Assembly: GCA_002238415.1 (NCBI GenBank)
Contig: MPMI01000032.1
Coordinates: 1-64,000, forward strand
Length of the DNA: 64,000 nt
Reading direction: 5' to 3'
DNA from: Desulfurellaceae bacterium bin18
GTDB taxonomy: Bacteria; Desulfobacterota; Binatia; Bin18
Under the pieces are notes generated by a model that saw only the letters and a program-made list of their open reading frames with translations, did not search any database and was not told where the DNA came from. Shown one piece after another: positions 14,945 to 61,930 of the stretch (positions are counted from its first letter, which is position 1; each line of letters starts with the position of its first letter). A program made the position numbers and the translations under genes.

Positions 14945-15272
14945 ACGCCTGTCAACTCCTCCTGATCGCGGCCTTGTCTTTTGGAGCATTCCATATAGCA
15001 GCTCTCTGTCAGAAAAAGGACTCCCTCCGGTGCTCGTTCACTTGGTCCGGGTTCGTGAGGATGATATAGCCGTGCTGGTTGCAGGGGGTTCCTGGAGTCT
15101 TTAAGATACACGGCCTGAGCGGAGTGTTTGGGGAACGGAGAGGCGCTGGTAAAAAACTATTGGGCACCTCCTCGGGAAGGTGGGATGGTAGCAAAAGAGT
15201 AAACGTGTCCTTTACTAGACATGAGAGGCTGGACACGTTTACTCTTTTCAGTAGTTTGTAAGGCGGGATATT
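14945..15272. other. intergenic gap before fabF
   Basis: 328 bases between the divergently placed phnA and fabF genes. It holds one strong palindromic element (described separately at 15193-15248) and the fabF ribosome site (AGGCGGG). No further gene or RNA is recognised. Confidence 0.5.
15193..15248. repeat. palindromic element, copy 1 (intergenic)
   Basis: Perfect 18-base inverted arms (AAAAGAGTAAACGTGTCC at 15193-15210 and its complement at 15231-15248) around a 20-base loop, 24 bases before fabF. It belongs to the family with arms of the type AAAGAGTAAACGTGTCC seen at seven other places in the window. As an RNA it would fold into a long hairpin in the fabF leader. Confidence 0.85.
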
Positions 15273-16639: not shown

Positions 16640-16693
16640 AAAGAATAAACATGCCCTCCAAATCATACAAAGCTGTTGGCATGTTTCCTCTTT
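16640..16693. repeat. palindromic element, copy 2 (fabF-fabH gap)
   Basis: Arms AAAGAATAAACATGCC and GGCATGTTTCCTCTTT match at 14 of 16 positions. The inner part, read on the minus strand, has the family core AGCTTTGTATGATTTGGAGG. It fills most of the space before the fabH ribosome site. Confidence 0.8.
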
Positions 16694-26724: not shown

Positions 26725-28186
26725 CTTGTCCCATCTGTTCGCCACTACGGCCCGCCGGGTATTGTGGCAGCGGAGCGCCAATACTCTCGGATTTTTTCTG
26801 CCCCTGGGGATTGCTGTTTTTTTCCTGGGGTATGGTCTGGTACTGGCATGTTCGCTGCCCATCTGGGTTTCTTTTCTTCCACCCGTCATCGTCTTCGGTG
26901 TGCTGCTGAACTCCCTCAGACAGGAAAAAAAGAGCTGCCAAGACGAGCGCATTGCTGGCCTGCTGGACGAGAAGACGGCTGGCCAAGAGCGTTTTCTCAC
27001 CCTGGCGACGCTTCCAGCTTCCTCAGACTTCTTAGCCCAGGTTCGGAACGAAGCCGCCAGGAAGGCCGCCTTCTTCGTTCCCGAGCGCGACCTGCCTTTC
27101 CAACTCGACAGGCGGGTTCCGATTGCGTGTGTCGGCGCAGTCCTGAGCGGCCTGCTCTTCTTGTTTTTGCCATCCGGCAGCGCGGCCCTCGCTCCAGGTG
27201 GCCTCTCACCTGTTGCGCCGACGCCAGAGACCCTGCGCCAGGATATTGAAGACATGGCCCGGCAGTTGGTCCGCTCACAGTCTTCTCCTGAAGAACAGCA
27301 AGCCGGAGCACAGCTCCTCGTGCTTGCTCAGGATCTCAGGAACCCAGCTCTGACCCCGCAGGAGAAGATACGCCTGATTGATGAGGCGCAAAAACGTATG
27401 AATCTGCCGCTGCCAGTGCCGCAGCTCCTTCCTCTTGATTTCAAGCTCTTTGGCAGCGACAGCACACAAGACGATAGTCCGGGCAACCAGGGTGACAGCC
27501 CACAGCCGGAGAATACGCCGCTGGCAAAGACAACTGAAAATCTGGAGCAACTCAAGCAGTCGCTGTCTGCGCAGAGGAATGAGTCGCAGCCGGGCGCGCA
27601 AAATACAAACCAGACGGATCAAGCAGACAATCAACCGTCACAAAAGCAGCAAAATACCCCCCAGGAATCCGGCGGTGGCATCAAATTTGACCAGCCCCAG
27701 TCTCAAGAACAAAAGGGGAAGCAACAGGCCCAGCAGAATACATCCGGTCAGCAGCAACAGGCTCCGCAACCGGGCCAACAACCGGACACTCGGCAGCCAC
27801 CTTCCGGAGTAGACCCACACAAAGCCGGACACGAGCAGCGCCGCCACGCCACGCAGCAGAGCAATGAGCAAAAACAGCCTCAGCAGGCCCAAGAGCAGTC
27901 AGGCGAGCAGTTCGGACAATCCGGTGGGCGGGGAAAAGGCGAGCGTTTTTACAAACCGGGCGAGCAGCCCGGCGGATTTCTGACTCAGGCTGCCCGCTAT
28001 GTCAAAGTTCGTATTCCGACCGGTATCAAGGCGGAACAGGACAGCCAGGAACTGACCGAAAATACCAGCCCGGCTGTCCCAACCACGCCGTATAGCAACG
28101 CCCCACTCGCCGACCGTCCGCCGGAGAAAAATACCCCTCAGCAGCGCATTCCCCTCGAATATCGAGCCATCTTACAGAAAGAGTAA
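26717..28186 (+). CDS. membrane protein with long Gln-rich region, MoxR-associated
   Basis: 489 aa from ATG 26717, overlapping the mltG stop by 8 bases. Two N-terminal hydrophobic spans (FFLPLGIAVFFLGYGLVLAC and VSFLPPVIVFGVLLNSL) and another near residue 150 are followed by a short helical segment (TLRQDIEDMARQLVRSQ) and a ~250-residue low-complexity tract rich in Gln, Pro and Ser. The next gene is a MoxR AAA ATPase; such pairs often act on cell-surface assembly, but no VWA or DUF58 gene is present. Its stop codon TAA is provided by a palindromic element. Confidence 0.7.
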   Translation: MDSLSHLFATTARRVLWQRSANTLGFFLPLGIAVFFLGYGLVLACSLPIWVSFLPPVIVFGVLLNSLRQEKKSCQDERIAGLLDEKTAGQERFLTLATLPASSDFLAQVRNEAARKAAFFVPERDLPFQLDRRVPIACVGAVLSGLLFLFLPSGSAALAPGGLSPVAPTPETLRQDIEDMARQLVRSQSSPEEQQAGAQLLVLAQDLRNPALTPQEKIRLIDEAQKRMNLPLPVPQLLPLDFKLFGSDSTQDDSPGNQGDSPQPENTPLAKTTENLEQLKQSLSAQRNESQPGAQNTNQTDQADNQPSQKQQNTPQESGGGIKFDQPQSQEQKGKQQAQQNTSGQQQQAPQPGQQPDTRQPPSGVDPHKAGHEQRRHATQQSNEQKQPQQAQEQSGEQFGQSGGRGKGERFYKPGEQPGGFLTQAARYVKVRIPTGIKAEQDSQELTENTSPAVPTTPYSNAPLADRPPEKNTPQQRIPLEYRAILQKE

Positions 28187-28231
28187 GCGTGCCCTCCACG
28201 TCATACATAGCTGTTGGTACGCTTACTTTTT
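28178..28231. repeat. palindromic element, copy 3 (supplies a stop codon)
   Basis: Arms AAAGAGTAAGCGTGCC and GGTACGCTTACTTTTT pair at 14 of 16 positions. The first arm encodes Lys-Glu-stop (AAA GAG TAA) and so forms the end of the preceding Gln-rich membrane protein. The core read on the minus strand (AGCTATGTATGACGTGGAGG) matches the family core of copies 2 and 4. Confidence 0.8.
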
Positions 28232-29352: not shown

Positions 29353-30021
29353 ATGAGGACTATGAATCTTATCCACACGGCTTTTGAGCCCGAGGGCGCA
29401 GGCCCACATCCAACCATTCTCGCCCTGCACGGCTGGGGTGCTAACGCACTCGACCTCCTGGGCTTGGCTCCTCATCTGTGTCGAGGCCGGTTTCTCGTCC
29501 TCTGCCCGCAGGGCCCGCTTCAGGTCCCTATCGGTCCGAACATGGTTGGTCACGGCTGGTTTCCGCTGACGAGTGGTGGGCCAATCGATGTCCAGGCGGT
29601 TCTCTCTGCGCGCGAGACCGTTCGCACCTTTCTTGACGAAGCACTGCAGCGCTACCCTGTTGATTCCAAGAAACTATGCGTGCTGGGTTTTAGTCAGGGC
29701 GGGGTCATGGGTTATAGCCTGGCCCTGGGCGAGCCCGAACGCTTTACCGGATTAGCGGCCCTCAGTTCGTGGCTGCCGAAAGACATGCTGACCGCATTAC
29801 CGGACGTGCCGGCAACCGAGCAACTGCCCGTGCTGGTCCAGCACGGCAGTAAGGACGAACTGATTGACGTAGGCCGCGCCCGTCAGTCCGTCGAAATCCT
29901 GCGGGATGTCAAAGCACCCGTGACCTACCGGGAGTATGATATGGGTCACGAAATCAATGCTCGCAGTCTGACCGATCTGTCGAACTGGCTCCAGGAAAAG
30001 GTAGTGTCGCCGAAAGAGTAA
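29353..30021 (+). CDS. phospholipase/carboxylesterase family hydrolase
   Basis: About 222 aa from ATG 29353 (ATG 29362 with GAGGA just before it is an alternative). The fold is alpha/beta hydrolase with the nucleophile elbow LGFSQGGVMG, the Asp in HGSKDELIDV and the His in DMGHEIN, as in YpfH/esterase D-like small esterases. The last codons, Lys-Glu-stop, come from a palindromic element that overlaps the gene end. Confidence 0.87.
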   Translation: MRTMNLIHTAFEPEGAGPHPTILALHGWGANALDLLGLAPHLCRGRFLVLCPQGPLQVPIGPNMVGHGWFPLTSGGPIDVQAVLSARETVRTFLDEALQRYPVDSKKLCVLGFSQGGVMGYSLALGEPERFTGLAALSSWLPKDMLTALPDVPATEQLPVLVQHGSKDELIDVGRARQSVEILRDVKAPVTYREYDMGHEINARSLTDLSNWLQEKVVSPKE

Positions 30022-30064
30022 ACGTGCCCAGCTTTGTATGGTTTGGAGGGCACATTTACTCTTT
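30013..30064. repeat. palindromic element, copy 4 (supplies a stop codon)
   Basis: Arms AAAGAGTAAACGTGCC and GGCACATTTACTCTTT match at 15 of 16 positions. As in copy 3, the first arm gives Lys-Glu-stop and ends the upstream esterase gene. The core CAGCTTTGTATGGTTTGGAG matches copy 2 closely. Confidence 0.85.
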
Positions 30065-42222: not shown

Positions 42223-42276
42223 AAAGAATAAACGTATCCTCCAATCAGATAAAAAAGCTGGACACGTTTACTCTTT
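42223..42276. repeat. palindromic element, copy 5
   Basis: Arms AAAGAATAAACGTATCC and GGACACGTTTACTCTTT match at 15 of 17 positions. Read on the minus strand the core is AGCTTTTTTATCTGATTGGA, nearly identical to copies 7 and 8. It fills the gap between the amidohydrolase and formyltransferase-like genes. Confidence 0.85.
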
Positions 42277-46952: not shown

Positions 46953-48392
46953 CTACTCGCTGTCCTGTTTGCCGTGGCACTCTTCAGCGCCGGGAGGATA
47001 CACAAGCGCAATTTTCATATCCATCACGTTTGTGCCCGTTGAGCCTGGACGAAACAAGTCACCGAGAGCAGAAAAGAAGGTATAAGTGTCATTATTACGC
47101 AGGAATTGAACGGGGTCGAGATTTTTACGACGCGCTCGATCCAGCGTCCGGCCGTCCACAAAGGCTCCGGCAGCGTTGGTCGGACCATCTATGCCGTCCG
47201 TTCCCGCACTCAGCAGGCTCCACCCGGCTTCTCCGGCGAGTTCCTGGGCGACAGCCAGCGCAAACTCCTGATTGCGCCCTCCTTTCCCTGTGCCTCGGAC
47301 CTGTACCGTTGTCTCGCCACCAGCCAGCAGACACGTCGGGCCAGAACAGTGCTGACGAACGGCACGCAGAGTTTGGGCAAAATCATGTCCGGCCACGAGT
47401 GAGTCACCGGCGAGAGGCTGAGCAATCAGGTGAGAGCGTAGCCCTCGGTGCGCGGCAGCCTCGCGGACAGCCTGCAACGCCAGATGATTCGACCCAATCA
47501 GCATATTGTGGACGCGAGAGAAGAGCGAGTCTCCGGGTTTTGGCGTCTCAGGTATGCTCCCGCGGACGCCTTGCTGCAGGTGCGTGCACACGGACTGGGG
47601 GAGCCGCGGTGCGATGCCGTACTGCTCCACCACCCGCCACGCGTCCATAAACGTCGTTGGATCAGCGACGGTCGGGCCTGAGCCGATCACGCTCAGATCG
47701 TCACCAATCACGTCCGACAGAATCAGACTGACCACAGTCGCGGGCTGCGCGTGGTGTGCGAGCCAGCCGCCTTTTACCTGGGATACATGTTTGCGCACGG
47801 TGTTCAGCGCCAGGATGTCCGCCCCGCATTCCAATAAAACAGCATTGGTGGCGGTCTTGTCTGCAAGCGTCAGCCCGACCGCGGGACGTACCAGCAGACT
47901 GGAGGCCCCGCCGGTCAGACACACCAGGACGAGGTCGTGGGGTTGGACCTGAGAGAGGCTCTCCACAAGCACTTGGGTCGCGTACTCACTGCCCGGTCCG
48001 GGCAATGGATGCTCTCCTTGCACAACCCGCACTCCAGGCAGAAACAGGTCAGAGACCGCTTGCTCGCTCGGAATGATAATACAGCCGCCTATTCTCCTCT
48101 GGCCCAGCGCAGGCATCAGCGCCTGGGCCATGCTACCCGCCCCCTTACCTGCCCCAATCAGGAAGAGGCGACCCGTCAACGCGAGCGTCAACGCGTCAAC
48201 AGTCTCGAAGAGGGAACGTGTCCTCTTATCATCTAAAAAAGCTGGACACGTTTCCTCTTTGTCCCGTGGCTGGACGATCAGCCGCTCATTTTCAATCGTA
48301 ACGGTCTGTGGAATGAGATGGCGCGGATGGACCGCATCAACGGCCGTCCGAAAAAGCGCAGTGAGCAGCGTGTATCGGTCGTCGGGTCGCAT
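46953..48392 (-). CDS. glycerate 2-kinase (GckA/MOFRL family) with inserted palindromic element
   Basis: 479 aa. Phosphorylates glycerate to 2-phosphoglycerate. Family segments: RLFLIGAGKGAGSMAQAL, VCLTGGASSLLVRP, the DUF4147 part and the C-terminal MOFRL domain (GGETTVQVRGTGKGGRNQEFAL; SAGTDGIDGPTNAAGAFVD). Residues ~45-62 (RDKEETCPAFLDDKRTRSLF region) have no counterpart in the family and are encoded exactly by a copy of the dispersed palindromic element, in frame, in the linker before the first core strand. The rest of the protein is intact, so it probably remains functional. Confidence 0.9.
   Translation of the reverse strand: MRPDDRYTLLTALFRTAVDAVHPRHLIPQTVTIENERLIVQPRDKEETCPAFLDDKRTRSLFETVDALTLALTGRLFLIGAGKGAGSMAQALMPALGQRRIGGCIIIPSEQAVSDLFLPGVRVVQGEHPLPGPGSEYATQVLVESLSQVQPHDLVLVCLTGGASSLLVRPAVGLTLADKTATNAVLLECGADILALNTVRKHVSQVKGGWLAHHAQPATVVSLILSDVIGDDLSVIGSGPTVADPTTFMDAWRVVEQYGIAPRLPQSVCTHLQQGVRGSIPETPKPGDSLFSRVHNMLIGSNHLALQAVREAAAHRGLRSHLIAQPLAGDSLVAGHDFAQTLRAVRQHCSGPTCLLAGGETTVQVRGTGKGGRNQEFALAVAQELAGEAGWSLLSAGTDGIDGPTNAAGAFVDGRTLDRARRKNLDPVQFLRNNDTYTFFSALGDLFRPGSTGTNVMDMKIALVYPPGAEECHGKQDSE
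48208..48260. repeat. palindromic element, copy 6 (inside glycerate kinase gene, in frame)
   Basis: Arms AAGAGGGAACGTGTCC and GGACACGTTTCCTCTT match at 15 of 16 positions; minus-strand core AGCTTTTTTAGATGATAAGA. The element lies within a coding frame without stop codons and adds about 18 residues. Confidence 0.88.
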
Positions 48393-48957: not shown

Positions 48958-50418
48958 TTAGGGAGAAGCGGCGTCCAAGTCAAGAGCTGTATGCGGTTGG
49001 AGCGGCTGTTCGGAAAGACACAAAGCTTGCAGGTCGTAGCCGGACGCCCCGGTAAGCCGGGCGCGGATCATGTCACCGCTGTCAGCCTGGCACTGTTCCA
49101 GGAAGACGGTGCCGTCGATATCCGGAGCCTGGCCCTGCGTCCGTCCCCACCAGCGGCCGTGATCGTCCTGGCCACAGACGAGTACCGATCGTTCCTCACC
49201 CACCAGTGCCATATTTTTTTTACGCACGACCTCGGCCTGGCAGGCCATCAACTTGTGCCAGCGGTCTTCTTTGAGCTCTGCGCTGACCTGGTCGGCCATC
49301 GTGCCAGCGGCCGTCCCTTCCTCCTGGGAATAGCGAAACACCCCCACGTGGTCGAGCGCCGCTTCGGTCACGAAATCACACAGTTGTTGGAAATCGTCCT
49401 CTTGCTCACCGGGAAAGCCAACAATAAAGGACGAGCGTACGACCACGCCGGGAATAGCGGCCCGAATCCGGCCCAATATGCGTCGAATGCCATCCCCGCT
49501 TTTCTCGCGCTTCATCCGCCTCAACATCCGGTCGCTGATGTGCTGGAGCGGCATATCAATATACGGGCACACCTGTTCTTCTTCAGCAATGAAACGCAGC
49601 AGGGTTTCATCAAGATAATTCGGATAGCAATACAGCAGCCGAATCCAGTCCAGGCCCTCCACGCGCACAAGGGACTTGAGCAGAGCGAGCAGGGTCGTCC
49701 CATCGCGGCGCTCTCGTCCGTAGGCGGTCAGGTCCTGTGCAATAAGATTGATTTCCCTTACCCCTTGCGCAACCAGTCCGGCGGCTTCCGCCACGAGAGA
49801 GGCGATCGGCCGACTTTCCTGTAAGCCGCGAATTTTCGGAATAATACAAAAGGCGCATTTATGATTGCAGCCCTCGGCAACCTTGAGATAGGCCGAGTAA
49901 AAATGGGTGGTCGGGATACGCGGAACGGTATGGTCCGGCAGAACGTGGGCAGCCCCCAGATACAGGGCGGGACCAGAAGAGGGAACGTGTCCGGCTTTTT
50001 TGGACGATTGGAGGATACGTTCCCTCTTTTCGAGCGCGCGCCGCTTCTGTTCCAATATCTGAGTGATCCGCAGAAACTCTCCCGTTCCCACAAAAACGTC
50101 AACTTCGGGCAATACTTCGCGCAACTCCCGGCCGTAGCGCTGGGCTAAACAACCGGTCACGATGAGCTGCTTCTGGGCCGCTGTCTCCTTATAGGCCGCC
50201 AGGTCCAAGATCGTCTCAATCGACTCTTCCTTGGCCTCATCAATAAAGCTGCACGTATTGACCATCAGGACCCCGGCCTGTTCCGGATCGAGGCTCAGCG
50301 TGTAGCCCGCATCCGCCAGCAGGCCAAGCATGACCTCGCCGTCCACGAGATTTTTGGGACAACCCAGATTCACCAGATACACGGACTTGTCCGGGCCGGA
50401 CCGGGCCTTATTCATCAT
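48958..50418 (-). CDS. rimO: ribosomal protein S12 methylthiotransferase with inserted palindromic element
   Basis: 486 aa from ATG 50418 (or 50415), overlapping the PAC2 gene stop. The N-terminal methylthiotransferase domain has three cluster Cys (NLGCPKN, NTCSFI, GCLAQRY). The radical-SAM motif is CNHKCAFC, followed by a TRAM domain. It adds a methylthio group to Asp of ribosomal protein S12. Residues ~131-148 (KRERILQSSKKAGHVPSS) are encoded by a palindromic element and fall in the linker between the two domains, where the family normally has variable sequence. Confidence 0.93.
   Translation of the reverse strand: MMNKARSGPDKSVYLVNLGCPKNLVDGEVMLGLLADAGYTLSLDPEQAGVLMVNTCSFIDEAKEESIETILDLAAYKETAAQKQLIVTGCLAQRYGRELREVLPEVDVFVGTGEFLRITQILEQKRRALEKRERILQSSKKAGHVPSSGPALYLGAAHVLPDHTVPRIPTTHFYSAYLKVAEGCNHKCAFCIIPKIRGLQESRPIASLVAEAAGLVAQGVREINLIAQDLTAYGRERRDGTTLLALLKSLVRVEGLDWIRLLYCYPNYLDETLLRFIAEEEQVCPYIDMPLQHISDRMLRRMKREKSGDGIRRILGRIRAAIPGVVVRSSFIVGFPGEQEDDFQQLCDFVTEAALDHVGVFRYSQEEGTAAGTMADQVSAELKEDRWHKLMACQAEVVRKKNMALVGEERSVLVCGQDDHGRWWGRTQGQAPDIDGTVFLEQCQADSGDMIRARLTGASGYDLQALCLSEQPLQPHTALDLDAASP
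49977..50028. repeat. palindromic element, copy 8 (inside rimO, in frame)
   Basis: Arms AAGAGGGAACGTGTCC and GGATACGTTCCCTCTT match at 15 of 16 positions, with core GGCTTTTTTGGACGATTGGA. It is read through without a stop in the rimO frame. Relative to the rimO frame its orientation is opposite to that of the copy inside the glycerate kinase. Confidence 0.88.
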
Positions 50419-54198: not shown

Positions 54199-54258
54199 GC
54201 AGCCTAGCCTGCCTCTCCCAGCCTGGAAAGGCCAACCGCTCTCCTCATTATTCCAGCA
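54199..54258. repeat. dispersed ~60-base repeat, copy A
   Basis: Starts GCAGCCTAGCCTG, has the middle TCTCCCAGCCTGGAAAGGCC and ends CTCATTATTCCAGCA. Two further copies lie at 55099 and 61460, so the three lie around and on both sides of the Cas12c island. This copy differs from the other two in its GC-rich centre. Confidence 0.8.
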
Positions 54259-54300
54259 TGGGCCCAGACTCAGCATCTTTCAGCGGCCGACATACAAGGA

Positions 54301-55098: not shown

Positions 55099-55160
55099 GC
55101 AGCCTAGCCTGACTCTCCCAGCCTGGAAAGGCCGCACCGGCCTCCTCATTATTCCAGCAG
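55099..55160. repeat. dispersed ~60-base repeat, copy B
   Basis: Near-identical to the copy at 61460 (GCAGCCTAGC, TGACTCTCCCAGCCTGGAAA, GGCCGCACCGGCC, ATTATTCCAGCAGAAGCCG). The centre GGCC(GCAC)CGGCC is a small inverted repeat. Confidence 0.85.
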
Positions 55161-55482
55161 AAGCCGGACATGTCCTGATGCAGGGTGGTACGAATGACAG
55201 GAGCCAGGAAAGGAGCGCGTTTTATGGTCGCCCAGGGGCACTGTAACCCCTGGAGAGGGAAAGGGGGGAAAAGGGAAGGAAAGCCTGAAGCCGAACAGCC
55301 ATTTGACAGCTTCCACAATGGCCTCCCGAGCAGCTTCTTTGGACAAGTACCACTCCATCGGTCAAGCTGTACCAGTGGGGGTGAAAGTGTACCAGCACCA
55401 GCCATTTAAGAGGGTCGGCATACCCGCCCTCTGCTTTTTGATGTATCGTGGGGGGACTTTCGACCGGACGAGAAGGACGAAC

Positions 55483-60504: not shown

Positions 60505-60744
60505 ACCAGCTTTGAAGGGGAATTAGAGGCAGCCGATTGCAACAGCCACCAGCTTTGAAGGGGAATTAGAGGCTTTTCCCGATGGCCGTAACCAGCTTTG
60601 AAGGGGAATTAGAGGTCAATGGCATAAGTTAGGACCAGCTTTGAAGGGGAATTAGAGGTCGGGGCGGTTCGTGTAAGCCAGCTTTGAAGGGGAATTAGAG
60701 GTCAGAAGCCTATTAGGAAACCAGCTTTAGACCCACATTGGTAT
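60505..60744 (+). CRISPR. type V-C CRISPR array, five repeats plus one decayed terminal repeat
   Basis: Five near-identical 25-base repeats (starting ACCAGCTTTGAAG and ending GGAATTAGAGG) at 60505, 60548, 60591, 60634 and 60677, a strict 43-base period. The fifth has G for the first A. Spacers are all 18 bases: CAGCCGATTGCAACAGCC, CTTTTCCCGATGGCCGTA, TCAATGGCATAAGTTAGG, TCGGGGCGGTTCGTGTAA, TCAGAAGCCTATTAGGAA. A sixth repeat at 60720 keeps only ACCAGCTTT and then diverges, marking the leader-distal end, so transcription should run rightward. Very short repeats and spacers are a known trait of V-C and V-D systems. Confidence 0.95.
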
Positions 60745-61459: not shown

Positions 61460-61520
61460 GCAGCCTAGCTTGACTCTCCCAGCCTGGAAAGGCCGCACCG
61501 GCCCCTCATTATTCCAGCAG
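61460..61520. repeat. dispersed ~60-base repeat, copy C
   Basis: Almost identical to copy B at 55099 (one extra difference near its start and one base lost in the GC-rich centre). Copies B and C enclose cas12c, cas1, the array and the secreted-protein gene. Confidence 0.85.
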
Positions 61521-61604
61521 AAGCCGAAATCCGGTATCTTTCATCGAATTGGTCGAGGTAAGGGAAGGTGCGGATTTCCAGAATTCAGCGCCACCCCAAA
61601 ACTC

Positions 61605-61930
61605 AGGATATGAAATTTCGCGGGATATTTCATAAAGATTTTGGCCGAAATCGCGAAAAGTCCAGCTTGTGCAGTCACTTAGGCGTGTTTCACGTTAAAT
61701 GAAATTTTTTCGGTGTTTCATAAGAATTTCACTTAAAATTCACGCTTAAAGCAGCCCTATTCTGGTTTTGGAACGTGTTTGCGGGGGTTTTACGGGCAGT
61801 TTGCGTAGACCAAAAAACTGCCGGGAAGGAGGCTGGCGGTGAAGGCCAGGGCGGGCGTGGTGAGGAGGATTTCCATATTTCACTTTGGATGAAATTTCAT
61901 GAAAGCTGAAATTTCACGTTTTATGAAATG
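61605..61930. promoter_or_regulatory. cluster of TGAAAT / ATTTCA motifs in a 617-base gap
   Basis: In a gap without genes (61434-62050) the motif TGAAAT or its complement occurs about ten times, often as palindromes: ATGAAAT N10 ATTTCAT (61610-61633), ATGAAATTTCAT (61889-61900), TGAAATTTCA (61907-61916), and further copies at 61688, 61699, 61716, 61725, 61877 and 61923. The AT-rich motifs stand out against the GC-rich background. They could be multiple operator sites or iteron-like repeats; the binding protein is unknown. The rest of the gap shows nothing recognisable. Confidence 0.5.

Follow-up and report, generated by a model that had tools for sequence, protein, structure and literature searches.

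A 54-bp palindromic element read in frame within rimO, probably part of a mobile family in Candidatus Binatia

The rimO element and its family

The window, the whole stretch of 64,000 nt that was analysed, carries the gene for the ribosomal protein S12 methylthiotransferase RimO and a glycerate 2-kinase-like gene, both of which contain a copy of the same short palindrome (Table 1). The deduced RimO protein exceeds the cut-off of the equivalog family TIGR01125 (468.2 bits; cut-off 356.95), and a RimO match was present in 58 of 58 relatives searched. The glycerate 2-kinase-like product matched NF040791 with 204.7 bits (E 2.8e-60), under the curated cut-off of 670.

Table 1. Element copies in the window and the genes discussed with them.
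Feature	Coordinates	Strand	Remarks
Element copy	15194..15247	+	No convincing ORF across; in G001 and G003, empty in G006
Element copy	16640..16693	+	No convincing ORF across; R1 match
Element copy	28178..28231	+	Between ORFs; R1 match
Element copy, 52 bp	30013..30064	-	At ORF end; empty in G003
Element copy	42223..42276	+	Upstream of ORF; R1 match
Glycerate 2-kinase-like gene, 479 aa	46953..48392	-	NF040791; carries copy 48207-48260
Second in-gene copy	48207..48260	+	Read as KEETCPAFLDDKRTRSLF; opposite orientation to its gene
rimO, ribosomal protein S12 methylthiotransferase, 485 aa	48958..50415	-	TIGR01125 match
Palindromic element in rimO	49976..50029	-	Arms 49976-49992 and 50013-50029, loop 49993-50012

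An inverted repeat proposed in an earlier note at 49977-50028 is real, with arms (49977-49992 and 50013-50028) that are 94% complementary, and it extends to the limits given in Table 1. The element is 54 bp long and forms a hairpin with arms of 16-17 bp and a loop of 20 nt; its sense strand, folded with RNA parameters, yielded -23.4 kcal/mol (z = -3.75), and it scored 67.1 bits against the covariance model R1. The earlier note had also placed a full element in frame in the linker between the two RimO domains, adding about 18 residues. This was borne out: the element contributes exactly 18 codons (AAG AGG GAA CGT ATC CTC CAA TCG TCC AAA AAA GCC GGA CAC GTT CCC TCT TCT), read in frame as the 18 residues KRERILQSSKKAGHVPSS, and alignment to the Thermotoga maritima RimO structure 4jc0 left the insert, inside query residues 123-173, unaligned between both matched domains, i.e. 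in the linker joining the N-terminal (MTTase) and radical-SAM domains. Since the element lies in frame in rimO and in other genes, its 18 residues should be translated, and we infer that they are made as part of the RimO protein; a predicted insert-derived peptide is, for example, AGHVPSSGPALYLGAAHVLPDHTVPR.

The arm motif was found 12 times in the window with up to 3 mismatches, compared to 0.30 matches expected from shuffles, and R1 identified the seven copies listed in Table 1. In the genome to which the window belongs (G000) the model gave at least 150 matches, 15 of which represented the same site on the opposite strand, leaving at least 135 distinct copies, a lower bound as at least one known copy is missing among the matches listed. 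Searches of all seven genomes of the genus (G000-G006) detected 80-147 model matches per genome, and both genomes of one sister genus had 16-45, while seven genomes representing the family's five remaining genera had none. Among 84,980 species genomes the exact pattern occurred in 72 stretches, all in records titled Candidatus Binatia or Binatota, and within the class it was present in 8 of 148 genomes.

Other repeats were observed in the same window. A dispersed repeat with the core GCAGCCTAGCCTGACTCTCCCAGCCTGGAAAGGCC...CTCATTATTCCAGCA lies at 54199-54285, 55099-55185 and 61460-61546, with six more copies in 380 kb of relatives; at L198, one copy adjoins an arm of the palindromic element that has decayed. 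At 60505-60703, a 27-nt unit (ACCAGCTTTGAAGGGGAATTAGAGG..) occurs five times in near-identical form, with a strict 43-nt period and differing 16-nt spacers, a CRISPR-like layout with spacers that are far too short, and nested A/T-rich palindromes (ATTTCATGAAAG...) are found near them at 61877-61929.

Filled and empty sites and the reading frame

The rimO insert (site 1) is present in six of the seven genus genomes, G000-G004 and G006, the last with a 12-nt in-frame deletion within it, and is missing in G005. The rimO genes of G005 and of genomes from other genera are exactly 54 bp shorter, with the flanks joined without a scar, and the aligned insert-free proteins, 18 codons fewer, read ...QKxRxLD-GP... 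or similar at this position. G005 nests together with G003 and G002 in the RimO tree. As these two genomes carry site 1, the absence in G005 represents a loss or a replacement by an empty allele and not the ancestral state. Furthermore, RimO of G002, G003 and G005 carries another in-frame copy around residue 80, for which the same frame of the element is used (KRKRVLQSDKKAEHVSSF); it is independent of the site 1 copy, and the site 2 copies differ between relatives by 6 nt, again a multiple of 3. That the insert is ordinary RimO sequence, palindromic in its DNA by chance, would fit its retention in six of seven congeneric genomes and its agreement with the RimO frame. However, the residues are missing where a relative has no palindrome, as exact 54-bp absences in G005 and in other genera, and these empty orthologous sites refute this explanation, which the family of at least 135 copies, the second copy in three RimO proteins and the copies in unrelated genes further reduce to a virtually nil probability.

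Reading through the element is not confined to rimO. We checked 65 copies in 457 kb of the same genome, in stretches that were picked because they hold copies, so that copy density in them is not representative. Credible genes are read through 12 of the 65 copies, eight internally and four near N-termini. The internal carriers are RimO, the glycerate kinase-like protein, a TonB receptor-like protein, a HEAT-repeat protein, a CaiB-like CoA-transferase, AddB-like and AddA-like proteins and a 424-aa hypothetical protein; the N-terminal ones are UvrC, the large subunit of a xanthine/CO (molybdopterin) dehydrogenase-like enzyme, a DUF3047-like protein and a TPR/SH3 protein, the HEAT, DUF3047 and TPR/SH3 labels having been assigned partly by eye. 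N-terminal copies could sit upstream of the true start. A thirteenth candidate, a HAD hydrolase, was dropped as its insert is probably upstream of the start, and a 161-aa ORF (L178:9657-10142) was dropped as it has stops in relatives. DNA alignments with congeners revealed an empty or partly deleted site for each of the 12 carriers, UvrC with a partial deletion only. The 54-bp insertion in the glycerate kinase-like gene, for instance, is present in G003 and G005 and absent from G001 and G006, and comparing the syntenic surroundings of rimO in five genomes provided further filled and empty pairs with a gap of 0. The element is hence, like a protein-coding palindromic repeat, a dispersed palindrome that lies in frame in several unrelated conserved genes and is absent from orthologues.

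In well-bounded coding comparisons, net length differences were multiples of 3, and partial deletions at carrier sites (-12, -15, -39, -51, -57 and -66 nt) kept the frame. The exceptions, namely the HAD, dehydrogenase and AddB rows, one DUF3047 row and one UvrC row, probably represent comparisons that cross the start codon, enter a variable stretch or reach the alignment end. Copy length was divisible by 3 in 12 of 13 in-gene candidates (HAD included) compared to 27 of 51 others, and a 55-nt in-gene copy corresponds to a net insertion of 54 bp. For each of the frames +3, -2 and -3, between 121 and 135 of the 156 copies (78-87%) are free of stops, compared to 35% for random 54-mers; the TAA within AAAGAGTAA usually closes frame +1. 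Across filled orthologues dN/dS was 0.66 in inserts and 0.18 in flanks, and synonymous divergence was 0.127 in inserts versus 0.248 in flanks; concerted evolution of the arms or later spread would both account for the lower insert value.

Insertion, loss and possible mobilisation

The 17-bp arms are 90% Watson-Crick paired over 64 copies and thus qualify as terminal inverted repeats of the kind expected of a MITE. They change in concert: 33 double-change Watson-Crick cells were counted, compared to a mean of 8 and a maximum of 19 after shuffling, and the orthologous copies carried by the TonB receptor and AddB genes show concerted changes as well. Such covariation, together with conservation of the site 1 insert in six of seven genomes, would be expected if the insert were retained as useful, e.g. 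because its RNA hairpin influences the expression of rimO or because it serves as an adaptive linker. We regard this as very improbable, given that the insert is lost in G005 and decayed in G006, that dN/dS is relaxed in inserts, that the same element occupies unrelated genes in both orientations, and that template-switch correction of imperfect palindromes also predicts concerted arms. The RimO linker would simply tolerate the element, and a benefit need not be assumed.

Alignment of 156 distinct contexts defined the target consensus BGCYNN^NNRGCV, a weak 12-bp palindrome with blunt insertion at its exact centre. The left flank disfavours A at -6 and prefers G at -5, C at -4 and Y at -3, mirrored on the right by R at +3, G at +4, C at +5 and avoidance of T at +6, which occurs in about 1% of contexts compared to 22% in the background; chi-square values at positions -6, -5, +5 and +6 were 40-60 (3 df). 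No k-mer duplication above chance was detected as a target-site duplication in these contexts, and many empty sites show a gap of 0. Mutual information between flanks was highest at +/-2 and +/-3, and bases at +/-2 to +/-4 showed a deficit of complementarity relative to expectation, a pattern that would arise if lengthening of the hairpin into flanking DNA were counterselected or removed.

Loop similarity was 0.95-1.00 between orthologous copies in CaiB and AddB and 0.61 between random pairs. As orthologous loops are far more alike than other loops, inheritance is the simplest origin of shared sites, and their patchy presence then implies precise losses or exchange between lineages. Exchange, with filled and empty alleles recombining across lineages in place of precise excision, would explain the patchiness in the TonB receptor, CaiB, AddB and RimO site 1, and it suits both the near identity of the CaiB and AddB loops and the synonymous divergence of inserts, which is half that of their flanks. 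However, at the divergence examined, the flanks give no indication of recent exchange; in CaiB, for example, the G000 stretch shares 94% identity with that of the filled G003 and 92-96% with those of empty congeners. We thus consider exchange a real possibility, though somewhat less probable than its absence. In the dehydrogenase gene, the copy at L173:12324-12379 and its orthologue at L260 (G003) occupy the same site in opposite orientations with similar loops; this may represent a flip in place that kept an open frame, the alternative being an independent insertion.

Dispersal, clean presence and absence at orthologous sites, insertion without duplication, concerted arms and preservation of the frame in genes can all be read from the aligned genomes. 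They suggest that the element has moved, and the rimO insert is very probably a non-autonomous mobile palindromic element, one of a genus-level family in Candidatus Binatia whose copies are read through at tolerated sites. No longer or autonomous element with the same ends was found in 1.87 Mb of fetched sequence. Solitary arms, sought as ends of such an element, numbered only 18 and were mostly decayed, and a 1,251-bp difference in G001 at the 30013 site, a possible parent transposon, proved to be an ordinary gene. IS110 and serine recombinases (resolvases) were rejected as mobilisers, being absent from most of the genus and not tracking the element.

The Y1 transposase (Y1_Tnp) was likewise rejected as it does not track the element: its gene occurs in three of the seven genus genomes, with no element copy beside any. 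A REP element that was moved by a REP-associated Y1 (IS200/IS605-like) transposase through single-strand peel-and-paste, the transposase having since been lost, would nevertheless fit the hairpin, the lack of a target duplication and the precise empty sites seen here, and intragenic REPs are known from repair genes (PMC3733652), to be compared with the UvrC, AddA-like and AddB-like carriers of this study. Against this origin, which we judge distinctly unlikely, stand the absence of the GTAG/CGTC tag, the absence of a Y1 gene (Y1_Tnp/RAYT) from G000, G004, G005 and G006 and from the surroundings of any copy, and the palindromic target, which suggests a symmetric dimer and not a directional single-strand site.

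The junctions and the symmetry of the target rather suggest blunt joining by an enzyme acting on a hairpin or cruciform. A trans-acting recombinase or transposase would recognise the folded element and join it bluntly into a BGCYNN^NNRGCV site. Insertions in genes would mostly be purged, and those that persist would sit in linkers, loops, signal peptides or N-terminal extensions. Two properties would let them persist: a standard length of 54 bp, equal to 18 codons, and the usual lack of stops in three of the six frames. The ribosome would thus read through and the protein gain 18 residues, which would then evolve under relaxed amino-acid constraint with the frame kept. Only tentatively, and as a proposal that we think unlikely to hold in full, we suggest an undescribed recombinase that acts on the DNA hairpin or cruciform, joins it bluntly, without duplication, at the centre of the 12-bp palindrome, and removes it scarlessly or flips it in place; if so, a palindrome of coding length could enter and leave proteins without damaging them.

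Relation to known palindromic repeats

Translated palindromic mobile elements would with this family reach an uncultivated phylum that is distant from Rickettsia and whose genomes here, at 4.6-5.2 Mb, are not reduced. New here are the blunt insertion at the centre of a palindromic target and the patchy presence with precise empty sites; target, junctions and empty sites are specific clues to how such elements are mobilised. Moreover, seven related genomes with filled and empty orthologues constitute a natural experiment on how proteins absorb inserts of 18 residues.

The earlier note had likened the element to Rickettsia palindromic elements (RPEs) tolerated inside proteins. In behaviour the likeness stands, given 12 read-through cases with empty or partly deleted orthologous sites. 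RPEs and the protein-coding repeats of Wolbachia are dispersed short palindromes in frame in unrelated conserved genes, with some ORFs hit twice (PMC2229807, PMC3733652, PMC10969869), and the Binatia element shares the dispersal, the many in-frame copies and, in RimO, the double hit. The likeness does not extend to the family, as the marks of RPEs are missing: RPEs have been described as about 105-150 bp long, with RPE-4/6 below this range, and as bearing a CGTC tag at one of their ends (PMC3733652 for the tag), whereas the present element has 54 bp, ends in AAAGAG...CTCTTT, resides in a different phylum, has a defined target palindrome and is read in several frames on both strands. Neither CGTC nor GTAG, the RPE/REP tags, was found at the ends of copies in its own genome.

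The supposed rarity of such inserts outside Rickettsiales has to be corrected, since in-frame palindromic inserts are not unique to that order. Intragenic REPs have been reported in Opitutus terrae, Thauera and others, with repair genes noted among their hosts (PMC3733652), QMITEs of Coxiella are in-frame palindromic inserts (PMC5896051), and ERIC, YPAL and Correia elements form fusions to ORFs (PMC2229807). With REPs and REPtrons the element shares a hairpin, high copy number and a mostly intergenic location with some copies in repair genes (PMC3733652), but it is untagged and longer, and a RAYT is neither present in its genome nor linked to its copies. Bacterial MITEs (Correia/NEMIS, ERIC, RUP, YPAL, QMITE) are likewise small non-autonomous inverted repeats with some in-frame ORF fusions (PMC2229807, PMC5896051); unlike them, the Binatia element generates no target-site duplication and has no parent insertion sequence with the same ends in the 1.87 Mb. 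Altogether, in the features compared here it matches no named family, and we would class it as a new family of an already known kind of element.
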